A DNA stretch of 64,000 bases from Thermocrinis jamiesonii (GTDB lineage Bacteria > Aquificota > Aquificia > Aquificales > Aquificaceae), in assembly GCF_000702425.1 (NCBI RefSeq), contig NZ_JNIE01000002.1, positions 248,001 through 312,000 on the forward strand, written 5' to 3'. The notes under the pieces are model-generated. The model searched no databases. It worked only from the letters and a program-made list of their open reading frames with translations, and had not been told where the DNA came from. A program made the position numbers and the translations under genes. Shown here piece after piece: positions 35,804-39,700 of this stretch; position 1 is the stretch's first letter; each line of letters starts with the position of its first letter.

Positions 35804-36067
35804 ATGGACCCAAAGCCAATAATTGAAGAACTGAAAAGAAAGGGATACAAAAACATATATACTTGGTGTGATCCACCAGGAACATTCTACGATTGGCACA
35901 TGCACAGCGAGGATGAAATAAGAGTGGTCTATAAAGGATCCATAGTAATAGGCACAAAGGAGGGTATTTACGAGTTGAAGGAAGGAGATAGTTTGGAAAT
36001 AAAGGCAGGAACCCTCCATTGGGCTAAGACTGAAAGCGGCGTATGTTACGTTTGCGGTAGCAAATAA
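35804..36067 (+). CDS. Small cupin-domain protein
   Basis: An 87-residue single-domain cupin. WHMHSEDEIRVVYKGSIVI gives cupin motif 1 (HxH, then E) and GDSLEIKAGTLHWAK motif 2 with the last His, so metal binding is likely. Substrate is unknown; small cupins of this form act as dioxygenases, isomerases or sensors. There is one Cys pair near the end (CYVCG). It is divergent from the atpI-like gene and 123 bp before the sulfide dehydrogenase gene; whether they work together is unknown. Confidence 0.78.
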   Translation: MDPKPIIEELKRKGYKNIYTWCDPPGTFYDWHMHSEDEIRVVYKGSIVIGTKEGIYELKEGDSLEIKAGTLHWAKTESGVCYVCGSK

Positions 36068-36132
36068 GTATATGTAAATATTACAAAAAATTCTATATAA
36101 AGCTAACTTATACAGTTTTAAAAACTTTTTAG

Positions 36133-36160
36133 TTGCTTATAAAGAGTTTGAGTTTAAAAT
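36133..36160 (+). promoter_or_regulatory. Promoter of the sulfide dehydrogenase locus
   Basis: TTGCTT at 36133-36138 and TAAAAT at 36155-36160 are separated by 16 bp, in an AT-rich 123-bp leader that holds no gene. GGGAGGT stands ahead of the ATG at 36191. I see no clear operator. Confidence 0.45.
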
Positions 36161-36190
36161 ATCATTTCAACAAAATAGGGAGGTAAAAGC

Positions 36191-37513
36191 ATGAGCGTAA
36201 GCAGAAGGGATCTTTTTAAACTGGCAGGTGTAGGTGCCATAGCGGTTGGTCTATCCTCTAAGCCCACCTTTGCAGCTGCAGAAAAGGTGGGAAAAATGGA
36301 AGCTATGCTTCCGCCACCAAAAGGCAATAGGGTAGTAATATGCGGTGGGGGATGGGCTGGACTTACTGTAGCAAAGTATCTCAAGAAAGAAAACCCCAAC
36401 ATTGATGTGGTCCTTATTGAAAAGAGGCCAAACTTCTTCTCCTGTCCCATATCCAACCCTTGGTTAGCTGGTTTGGTAAGCCTTGACTTTATATCTCATG
36501 ATTACAACCAACCTGCGGCAAAGTATGGTTATAGGTTTATAAACGCTGTGGTTTTGGGAATAGAAAGGGACAGAAAGAGGGTTTATACCAACTACGGTTA
36601 TATAGAATACAACTACTTGGTTTTGGCACCTGGAATAAGGTATAACTACTCCGCTTGGTTTAAGGATGACAAGGAGATGGCAAATTATGCCAGAATCAAC
36701 TATCCGCCCGCTTTCATACCCGGTTCTGAACATTTAGCTCTAAAGAGAAAGATTGAGGAGTTTGAGAAGGGAGACTTTATAATTACAGTTCCACCAGGAG
36801 CCTACAGATGTCCGCCCGCACCTTACGAAAGAGCTTGTATGATAGCGGAAGTGTTCAAAAGAAATAAAGTAAATGGTAGAGTTATAATCCTTGATCCAAA
36901 GCCAGATATAGCGCCAAAGGGTCCTGGATTTAGAGCTGCGTATGAGCAAGTTTATCTTGGTTTAGTGGAGTATGTGCCCAATGCGACCATAAAGGAAGTG
37001 GATCCAGTCAAGAAGGTAATTAAGACCACCGCCGGAGACTTTAAGTTTGATGATGCTAACTTGGTTCCACCCCATCAAGCAGGTAGCCTGGTTTGGATGG
37101 CAGACCTGATAGCAAAGGACAAAGAAGGCAAACCCACAGGATGGGCAGACCAGGATCCATTAACCTTCCAAGCTAAGGCGGACCCCTACGTATTCTTGGT
37201 GGGAGATGTGGTAAGCGGTGTTCCCTATCCAAAGAGCGGACACATGGCAAACTCCCAAGGAAAGATAGTCGCAAAGATAATAGCGGGAAGGATAGCGGGT
37301 AAAGAAGTTAAGCCTACTTTACCGGACAACACATGCTATTCTATGGTAAACGGCAGTCCTCAAGAGGCAATAGTCATTAATGTGACCTACGAATACAACG
37401 AAAAGGAGAAAAAGATAGTTCCAAAGCCAAAAGCTATAAACGAGCGCTCACAGGCGTTGGCGAAAGCCACCTACGAATGGGCAAAGTCTATGTATAGGGA
37501 CATGTTCGCTTAA
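36191..37513 (+). CDS. fccB: Flavocytochrome c sulfide dehydrogenase flavoprotein
   Basis: A 440-residue periplasmic flavoprotein oxidising sulfide. Twin-arginine signal SRRDLFKLAGVGAIA at residues 4-18 ends near FAAA. FAD-binding GGGWAGLTVAKYL starts at residue 52, VFLVGDVV is the second FAD motif, and the FCSD C-terminal flavin-binding domain follows. Cys207 (YRCPPAPYE) and Cys382 (TCYSMV) are 175 apart, the same distance as the redox disulfide Cys pair of Allochromatium FccB. No fccA cytochrome is next to it; a TAT-exported Rieske protein is, and may be the electron acceptor. Confidence 0.9.
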   Translation: MSVSRRDLFKLAGVGAIAVGLSSKPTFAAAEKVGKMEAMLPPPKGNRVVICGGGWAGLTVAKYLKKENPNIDVVLIEKRPNFFSCPISNPWLAGLVSLDFISHDYNQPAAKYGYRFINAVVLGIERDRKRVYTNYGYIEYNYLVLAPGIRYNYSAWFKDDKEMANYARINYPPAFIPGSEHLALKRKIEEFEKGDFIITVPPGAYRCPPAPYERACMIAEVFKRNKVNGRVIILDPKPDIAPKGPGFRAAYEQVYLGLVEYVPNATIKEVDPVKKVIKTTAGDFKFDDANLVPPHQAGSLVWMADLIAKDKEGKPTGWADQDPLTFQAKADPYVFLVGDVVSGVPYPKSGHMANSQGKIVAKIIAGRIAGKEVKPTLPDNTCYSMVNGSPQEAIVINVTYEYNEKEKKIVPKPKAINERSQALAKATYEWAKSMYRDMFA

Positions 37514-37561
37514 TATTCCAAGCCCCCTTTACCGGGGGCACAAAAATATAGAGGAAACATC

Positions 37562-38278
37562 ATGAACAGGCGGAGTTTTATAAAAGCATGCAGTACCATA
37601 GCGGTAGCTTCTATGATAGACCCATCTGTATTTTCTGGGCTTATCTCAGCCCAAGAGGGAATGTTCAAAGCATACAAAAAAGCCATTCTGTTAAAAGAGG
37701 ATGGCTCTCCCCTCACAGAAGAGGACCTAAAACCGCACACAAACTACATATTTTTCTATCCCTACGCAAGCACACCTTGTTATATTATTAATCTTGGAGA
37801 AGAGGTTAAACCTGTGGAGGTTACACTAAGGAACGGTAAGAAATACAACTGGCAAGGTGGGGTGGGAAGCAAAAAAAGTATAGTTGCATACTCTGCTATC
37901 TGTGCCCATCAATGGAGCTATCCAACCAAGAAGTATTCTTTCATAAACTACTATCCTCCAGAAAAGCCCTCTGAGATTACAAAAAAGGCAGGAATAATTC
38001 AATGCTGTGCCCATTTGGCCCTTTATGACCCAAAGGAAGGAGCAAAGGTAATTGATGGTCCAGCAGAGTTTCCGTTAGCCTCTGTGGTTATACAGGAGGA
38101 AGGTGGAAAGTTTTACGCCATAGGCATACTTGGAGTGGATCAATTTGATAAGTTCTTTGATAATTACAAAAGAGAATTGAGAGAAGCTTACGGATCAACT
38201 GCGAAGGCAAAAGAATTAGTGGAGTCGTGCAAAGTGATGGAGGTAAGCAAGTATGTTGGACAAGTCATTTACTGTTAA
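37562..38278 (+). CDS. TAT-exported Rieske [2Fe-2S] protein
   Basis: A 238-residue protein with a twin-arginine leader, NRRSFIKACSTIAVA. The Rieske ligands are C114-A-H116 (SAICAHQW) and C148-C-A-H151 (IIQCCAHLALYD), but 31 residues lie between the two boxes, more than the usual 15 to 17. It lies 48 bp after fccB and is transcribed with it, so it probably handles electrons from sulfide oxidation or links to the bc1-type chain. It has no membrane segment beyond the leader. Homologues beside FCSD in other Aquificales would settle the pairing. Confidence 0.8.
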   Translation: MNRRSFIKACSTIAVASMIDPSVFSGLISAQEGMFKAYKKAILLKEDGSPLTEEDLKPHTNYIFFYPYASTPCYIINLGEEVKPVEVTLRNGKKYNWQGGVGSKKSIVAYSAICAHQWSYPTKKYSFINYYPPEKPSEITKKAGIIQCCAHLALYDPKEGAKVIDGPAEFPLASVVIQEEGGKFYAIGILGVDQFDKFFDNYKRELREAYGSTAKAKELVESCKVMEVSKYVGQVIYC

Positions 38279-38781
38279 CAGAAGGGACCTTATAAAGGGG
38301 ACAGTAGAGGTTTGTGAGAACCACTCATGGAGATTTTAACTACGATTTGGCGTGCATCATTCCACCCATGAAAGCAAGCTCTCTGTTAGAACACATAGGA
38401 CTCTTGAAAAAGGGCGAAAAGTGGGTTGATGTAAATCCTTTGACTTTTGAAACGAAAATACCAAACGTGTTTGTGATAGGGGATGCAGCCCAAAGCTACC
38501 TTCCAAAGAGCGGATATGTGGCCTATTCTGAAGGCAAATTGGTAGCAAAGATAATAAACGCAAGAATAAAAGGTAAAAAGGTTGAAGAAGAGTATATGCA
38601 GATGGTATGCTATGCAACGGTAAGCGATAGAGAAGCTATTATGGTGGAGACGAGCTTTAGGTATGATAACATCAATAAAAGATTTATTCCTTCACACAGA
38701 GAGGACAACAAGAGAAAGGAGACAACGGCCAAAAGATACGAAGAGTGGGCTAAAGGTTTGTGGAGAGAGCTTTTTGGTTAG
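38253..38781 (+). pseudogene. Internally deleted second FCSD flavoprotein gene
   Basis: The first piece starts at ATG 38253, inside the end of the Rieske gene, and reads MLDKSFTVNRRDLIKG, a twin-arginine leader as in fccB, then loses register near 38298-38313. From about 38311 a different frame continues RTTHGDFNYDLACIIPPM and runs to 38781, matching fccB from residue ~277 to its end, including FVIGDAAQ, PKSGYVAYSEGKLVAKII and the late Cys (MVCYATV). About 265 codons carrying the FAD site and first redox Cys are missing. An active product is very unlikely. Confidence 0.82.
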
Positions 38782-38784
38782 GGT

Positions 38785-38988
38785 TTAAAATTCTTTTAGC
38801 ATTCCCTTAACTTTGTCTTCCCAACCTGGATGCACAAAATCTGGCTTTCTTAGACTTCTTTTCCTCTTCTTTGACTTTTTTGTGTTGTAGTGGGCTCCTC
38901 CGGACTTCCACCTTTTTATCTTGCCCGTGGCAGTTATCTTAAACCTCTTCTTTGCGGACCTGTTAGATTTCATCTTCACCTTTGCCAT
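38785..38988 (-). CDS. rpmI: 50S ribosomal protein L35
   Basis: A 67-residue, highly basic protein beginning AKVKMKSNRSAKKRFKIT and containing SGGAHYNTKKSKKRKRSLR, the L35 pattern. It binds 23S rRNA. Usually found as infC-rpmI-rplT; here it stands alone, 22 bp after fliA and on the same strand. It ends 3 bp from the convergent FCSD remnant. Confidence 0.96.
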   Translation of the reverse strand: MAKVKMKSNRSAKKRFKITATGKIKRWKSGGAHYNTKKSKKRKRSLRKPDFVHPGWEDKVKGMLKEF

Positions 38989-39010
38989 CTTCCTTTACCT
39001 CCAAGCTACA

Positions 39011-39700
39011 TTATACCACATCTTTCAACATTTCCCTAAGCTTGTTTATGGCACTCTCCTTTATTTGAGATATTCTGGCAGTAGATACACCTAAAAGCTT
39101 TGCCACCTCTTTGGCTGGAATTTCTTCGTAGAATAGAAGTTGTAGAACAAGCTGTTCCCTTTGTTCCAAGCGTTTTATTGCAGAAATTATCTTTTCCTTT
39201 AGGTCCGCTTCCATTACATTCTCTTCCGGAGATCCTAATTTTGCAGAAAGCACCTCTTCGTAACTTCTTCCTTCCCTGAATATATCATCTAAGGATAGAA
39301 TGTATGATGCGGATATTTTCTGAAGGTCAGAGTAAAAGGTTTCTGGTTTTTCTCCCAAAGCACTTATAAGCTCATCATCCGTGGGCTCTCTACCCAACTC
39401 CTGCGTGAGTCTTTCTAAGGTTTGTTTTATTTCCTTTTCCCTTTTTCTAAGCGACTTACTCCCAAAATCTAAGCTTCGCAAGTAATCGTATATGGCTCCT
39501 TTAATCCTAAGCTTTAAATAGGCCTCTGGATTTTTGGTATTATCCAGCCTTTGGGCAGATTCTAAAACTGCCAGAATACCCTGCCCTATGAGGTCATTTA
39601 CATCAACAGTATCTGGTAAATGCCTGTGTATTCTGTGCGCTAAGGATTTTACCAAAGGCAAATACTTTAATACGAGTTCTTTTTTTATGTCTTTATTCAT
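39011..39700 (-). CDS. fliA: RNA polymerase sigma-28 (FliA/WhiG family)
   Basis: A 229-residue alternative sigma factor. Region 2 includes LVKSLAHRIHRHLPDTVDVNDLIGQGILAVLE with the FliA-specific spacing, then LRIKGAIYDYLRSLDFGSKSLRKR. Region 3 is LERLTQELGREPTDDELISALG, and region 4 has EVAKLLGVSTARISQIKESAINKLR as the HTH. In flagellate bacteria it transcribes late flagellar genes; no flagellar gene is in the window. It precedes rpmI by 22 bp, so the two may be cotranscribed. No ribosome binding site is obvious. Confidence 0.9.
   Translation of the reverse strand: MNKDIKKELVLKYLPLVKSLAHRIHRHLPDTVDVNDLIGQGILAVLESAQRLDNTKNPEAYLKLRIKGAIYDYLRSLDFGSKSLRKREKEIKQTLERLTQELGREPTDDELISALGEKPETFYSDLQKISASYILSLDDIFREGRSYEEVLSAKLGSPEENVMEADLKEKIISAIKRLEQREQLVLQLLFYEEIPAKEVAKLLGVSTARISQIKESAINKLREMLKDVV

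Follow-up and report, generated by a model that had tools for sequence, protein, structure and literature searches.

Behind an intact gene for a flavocytochrome c sulfide dehydrogenase (FCSD) flavoprotein (FCSD1) and an intact Rieske protein gene of the hot-spring bacterium Thermocrinis jamiesonii lies a segment of DNA that carries the beginning and the C-terminal third of a second FCSD gene (FCSD2) and abuts the gene for ribosomal protein L35 (Table 1). The question raised by this locus is whether the segment represents a gene in decay, a shortened gene still in use or an error of the assembly. The DNA analysed, hereafter the window, is a stretch of 64,000 nucleotides (contig NZ_JNIE01000002.1, positions 248,001 to 312,000), and all positions below are numbered from its first base; T. 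jamiesonii is genome G000 among those compared.

Table 1. Features of the FCSD1-Rieske-FCSD2 region in the window
Feature	Position	Strand	Basis
FCSD1 (FccB1/DhsU1 type, intact, Tat start, 440 aa)	36191..37513	+	ORF; Pfam
Rieske protein gene (periplasmic-type, intact, 238 aa)	37562..38278	+	ORF, NCBIfam, structure match
FCSD2 N-terminal piece, RR motif, ends at junction	38253..38305	+	alignment; start register as in intact orthologues
FCSD2 C-terminal third	38306..38781	+	ORF, Pfam, alignment to relatives
rpmI (ribosomal protein L35), convergent neighbour on 3' side of remnant	38785..38988	-	Pfam Ribosomal_L35p 81 bits

The FCSD1 protein matches the Pfam families FCSD_central (101 bits) and FCSD-flav_bind (40 bits), and its nearest solved structures are 5n1t, 1fcd and 3vrd. 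No gene for the cytochrome FccA was seen beside FCSD1 in the ORF list, its place being taken by the Rieske protein gene. The translated product of the latter matches no Pfam family at E 0.01, and its closest NCBIfam models, SoxL2 (91.8 bits) and the arsenite oxidase small subunit, both score below their curated cut-offs. It furthermore resembles the soxF Rieske protein (1jm1), and the C114-H116...C148-C149-H151 residues are conserved. A search of the T. jamiesonii genome yielded no second, intact copy of FCSD2. The sole other relative encoded there is an SQR-like flavoprotein (L003:1495-2784; G000:C2 near 354930), for which the best NCBIfam model is the type III SQR, with a score of 98 bits that falls far under the cut-off of 525.

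The 5' part of FCSD2, MLDKSFTVNRRDLIKG, begins at ATG 38253, still within the Rieske gene, whose stop is at 38276-38278, as the sequence-only reading had described. Its frame reads MLDKSFTVNRRDLIKGTVEVCENHSWRF, 28 codons in all, and ends at a stop at 38337-38339, being out of register past the junction. The twin-arginine (RR) motif sits just 3' of the Rieske stop in this frame ending at 38339, and the Tat signal peptide is not in frame with the remaining enzyme part of FCSD2. The C-terminal frame is closed at the junction by TAG 38305-38307 and open from GTG 38314 to 38781, comprising 155 codons with zero stops. Its product retains the C-terminal domain (27.2 bits to Pfam FCSD-flav_bind, just above the cut-off of 26), aligns with the FCSD structure 5n1t from residue 271 and shares up to 86% identity with the closest near-full-length orthologue. 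The sequence-only reading had assigned this part to the C-terminal third of FccB, in agreement with its alignment to FCSD1 residues 275-439 at 42% identity.

Alignment to a genome of the same genus (G004) and one of the same family (G016) places a single gap after base 38305, within the interval of about 38298-38313 in which an out-of-frame fusion had been proposed. The gap stands opposite 735 bases in G004, one of which is an extra A in an A8 run, and 728 bases in G016. The deletion thus measures 728-734 nt (2 mod 3), corresponding to 243-245 codons and a change of frame, somewhat less than the initial estimate of about 265 codons. The remnant lacks the FAD-binding Rossmann motif (GGGYGG), which is present as VGGGYGG in G004 and G016. 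Two cysteines that intact FCSD2 shares with 3vrd and 5n1t, those in FFMSCPMSN and YRCPPAPYERA, have likewise been deleted, and of the three FCSD cysteines only the C-terminal one (MVCYATV) is kept; in the passages on these residues in PMC3504083, the FCSD cysteines are assigned to covalent FAD attachment and an active-site disulfide. Relative to the intact orthologues, the reading frame is broken, as in a pseudogene. No direct repeat occurs at the junction, where the ends share at most 2-3 bases as judged from the relatives rather than from the ancestor's own sequence, and a repeat-mediated deletion was dismissed on that ground.

The sequence-only reading had offered a collapsed repeat as an alternative to a deletion. 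The T. jamiesonii assembly is a short-read draft of 1,315,625 bases in 10 contigs, with the operon on contig 2, and one expected gene is missing from it according to its own authors (PMC5073254), such that 0.73 kb might have been left out by the assembler, or FCSD1 and FCSD2 merged into one. This explanation is, however, very improbable. In the genome the 171-nt junction is found a single time, as are its 20-mers in the window, and FCSD1 and the remnant have no identical stretch longer than 13 nt. Had FCSD1 been collapsed onto FCSD2, the intervening Rieske gene would have gone as well, and the 2.7 Gbp of Illumina reads reported (PMC5073254) correspond, by our arithmetic, to about 2050-fold coverage of 1.3 Mb. 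Different lesions of FCSD2 are also found in other genomes of the genus.

To place these lesions in context, the DNA behind the Rieske gene was read, up to the contig limits, in all 61 of the 112 Aquificales genomes in which this gene was detected (E 1e-10). A full-length FCSD2 is present in 33 of the 61, including G048, where it is cut by a contig end. Remnants are found in five (G000, G001, G002, G067 and G045), G004 carries a frameshift only, and the gene is absent from sixteen. Six could not be judged, namely G020, in which the whole operon has decayed, and G043, G046, G052, G071 and G079, where contigs end; in G043 and G052 a piece of FCSD2 lies on another contig. The G067 copy carries an in-frame TGA besides several lesions, while that of G045 shows repeated frameshifts. 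All 33 intact FCSD2 genes have their start within the Rieske gene's 3' end, in a common register. For 32 of them the alignment begins at -22, counted from the Rieske end, and for the remaining one (G009) the register is unchanged. An overlapping start kept in one register across two families suggests translational coupling. The ancestral FCSD-Rieske-FCSD order, proposed from the T. jamiesonii sequence alone, with a full-length third gene in relatives named as its check, is therefore supported by the 33 genomes, and the occurrence of FCSD2 at one register in two families (f1 and f3) points to an old three-gene operon.

At least ten changes of FCSD2 state are required on a tree of the Rieske protein (55 rows, 54 counted), and at least eight on a tree of RpoB (50 rows, 46 counted), or nine when G004 is set as present (47 counted), in trees that do not distinguish gain from loss. 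G004 was left out of the Rieske-tree count and of the first RpoB count because its frameshifts may be sequencing errors. Of the 55 genomes with a state, eight are missing from the RpoB tree, five for want of a match (G001, G010, G045, G047 and G057) and three with partial matches (G055, G056 and G109), while G005, G006 and G020 were added to it with no counted state. FCSD2 has been lost many times independently, in T. jamiesonii among others. An association of these losses with the loss of SoxB was considered and rejected, given that SoxB is present, whole or partial, in nearly every operon-bearing genome (87 of the 112 genomes of the order have a match).

Several other arrangements were encountered in the course of this survey. 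The decayed operon of G020 (L201) consists of FCSD1 in several pieces and a Rieske fragment only, FCSD2 being absent. In G038 (L227) the opposite loss is seen, with FCSD1 in two pieces (residues 1-279 and 253-440) and FCSD2 intact. G057 (L084) and G048 (L085) harbor a four-gene version, in which tandem FCSD1-type genes, about 60% and 47% identical to T. jamiesonii FCSD1, are followed by the Rieske gene and FCSD2. Among records L102-L146, the Rieske protein gene adjoins an FCSD gene in many Campylobacterota, while in Burkholderiales-type records such as Hydrogenophaga (L135, L137) it stands without FCSD within the flanks examined; no full-length FCSD2 was seen in the flanks of any of these loci.

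Within Thermocrinis, an uninterrupted FCSD2 is present in none of the seven genomes. The nearly full-length gene of G004 is interrupted by one frameshift, in the A8 run, and the Rieske gene of this metagenome-assembled genome (MAG) has a further one in an A7 run; both may be sequencing errors. G001 and G002, the latter of which we take to be T. ruber, have in common a gap of 81 bases and the replacement of the ATG by ACG, together with separate second gaps of about 1.0 kb. No FCSD2 lies between the Rieske gene and rpmI in G003, and no Rieske gene was found in G005 (87% complete) and G006 (70% complete). Judged from these sequences, the T. jamiesonii deletion is independent of those in G001 and G002, since the breakpoints differ and G004 branches with the latter two. 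The differences among the FCSD2 tails of G001, G002 and G004 are mostly at third codon positions, which suggests that the loss is young there also. In G001 (L036/L067) FCSD1 is furthermore split over two frames and the Rieske gene contains an in-frame TAG; the whole operon may be failing, or these may be errors of the MAG.

The last FCSD2 codons are retained in G000, G001, G002 and G067. With its 5' end inside the Rieske gene and its 3' end abutting rpmI, FCSD2 would be expected to tolerate deletions only between these two boundaries, which may account for the position of those that survive. A terminator as the cause of tail retention was also considered and dropped, as none was found at the FCSD2 3' end in a scan of 36000-39200, which yielded 2 terminator-like sites against 3.1 expected. 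The same interval contains 3 promoter-like sites against 6.1 expected, with no promoter signal within the remnant.

The age of the T. jamiesonii lesion was approached through the substitutions in the remnant. Its dN to G004 is 0.075, compared to 0.093 for FCSD1 and 0.117 for the Rieske gene, with silent sites saturated; the remnant rows of G002 and G003, which matched FCSD1 (35-40% identity), were left out of this comparison. On the T. jamiesonii branch the remnant has accumulated 7 amino-acid and 29 silent changes, and FCSD1 and the Rieske gene together 37 and 81, such that no excess of amino-acid change indicative of relaxed selection was detected on the remnant branch (Fisher p 0.21), as expected if the lesion is young. 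Pseudogenes usually bear such a sign of relaxation, and its lack counts to some extent against this status for the remnant. For dating, the branch dS was assumed to be about half of the pairwise values (0.6 to 1.2), and the 26.5 pairwise differences were halved and rounded up to give 14 replacements on this branch. Under these assumptions, so few replacements would be improbable (P about 0.03-0.04) had the frame evolved neutrally for longer than about 10% to 5% of the branch. Provided that it has been neutral ever since the deletion, this event falls in roughly the final 5-10% of the branch. The 155 codons without a stop, the low dN against saturated dS and the lack of excess amino-acid change are thus in keeping with the recent deletion first proposed from the little-decayed appearance of both parts.

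The same data could be read as a sign that the short frame is still under selection, encoding a C-terminal FCSD domain that would lack FAD and stay in the cytoplasm; its translation would start at GTG 38314, possibly through re-initiation once the 28-codon frame has been read. The open frame and its low dN are compatible with such a small protein, as are the overlap of the 28-codon upstream frame with GTG 38314 and the AGAGG that precedes this codon. However, the protein would have neither a signal peptide nor the nucleotide-binding motif and only one of the three cysteines, and recent loss explains the conservation of the frame equally well. The 112 genomes of the order were furthermore searched for the identical short form, the finding that had been named in advance as speaking against a deletion, and none of the relatives has it. 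For that reason a young deletion is far more likely than continued selection, and we regard a functional short protein as having very little chance of being correct.

The FCSD2 remnant is thus very probably a young pseudogene, produced by one out-of-frame deletion in a former FCSD1-Rieske-FCSD2 operon. The ancestral operon would have comprised FCSD1, the Rieske protein gene and FCSD2, an arrangement of the DhsU1-Rieske-DhsU2 type, from which a single deletion of the size given above, with a few bases of end homology at most, would have removed the end of the signal peptide, the FAD-binding part and the central domain. The 5' end of FCSD2 would have survived by virtue of its location inside the Rieske gene, with rpmI bounding the 3' end. 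The enzyme could presumably no longer be made, leaving FCSD1, the Rieske protein and the SQR-like protein as candidates for sulfide oxidation, and FCSD2 would appear to be dispensable in this strain. The use of thiosulfate as sole donor by T. jamiesonii (PMC5073254) fits a lapsed need for one sulfide enzyme, but does not prove it.

The loss of FCSD2 here is an ordinary case of gene decay, of interest chiefly as a natural experiment in which the loss of a candidate second sulfide dehydrogenase beside a Rieske protein has been caught early. As the gene has been lost many times, close pairs of relatives with and without FCSD2 exist, and its predicted function could be tested through their use of sulfide and thiosulfate. 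Given the lack of an uninterrupted gene in the seven Thermocrinis genomes and the several young, independent lesions, it is conceivable, if rather doubtful, that FCSD2 is not redundant but niche-dependent, with its loss favoured in some terrestrial hot-spring lineages. Counts of FCSD genes derived from short matches would overstate the sulfide-oxidation capacity of Thermocrinis. No published account of this FCSD2 loss was found in searches of the open-licence PubMed Central literature.

The three-gene layout itself has already been published. In the sections of PMC3504083 that concern it, a large sausage-shaped Sulfurihydrogenibium relative is described with a dhsU1-Rieske-dhsU2 cluster, which has the same gene order as T. 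jamiesonii, with the Rieske gene between two sulfide dehydrogenase genes. There, the cluster is preceded by a flavocytochrome gene and followed by sox genes, and dhsU1 and dhsU2 are each described as a gene, whereas in T. jamiesonii the counterpart of dhsU2 is destroyed, and the convergent rpmI, not sox genes, comes next. According to the same sections, recombinant DhsU1 oxidised sulfide, while DhsU2 could not be expressed in E. coli; sulfide dehydrogenase activity is thus reported there for DhsU1 of another organism only and is predicted, by analogy, for the T. jamiesonii operon. Both dhsU genes were among the RT-PCR targets of a follow-up study, in the relevant part of which the in situ expression of sulfide-oxidation genes is reported (PMC4912159). 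FCSD1 and the intact orthologues of FCSD2 can be aligned for most of their length with the FccB proteins of known structure (1fcd, 3vrd and 5n1t), those of FCSD2 including the cysteines, whereas the T. jamiesonii remnant retains only the last third. Its nearest counterparts are the remnants of G001, G002, G067 and G045, which represent the same gene, broken or for the most part deleted behind a recognisable operon, but by other lesions.
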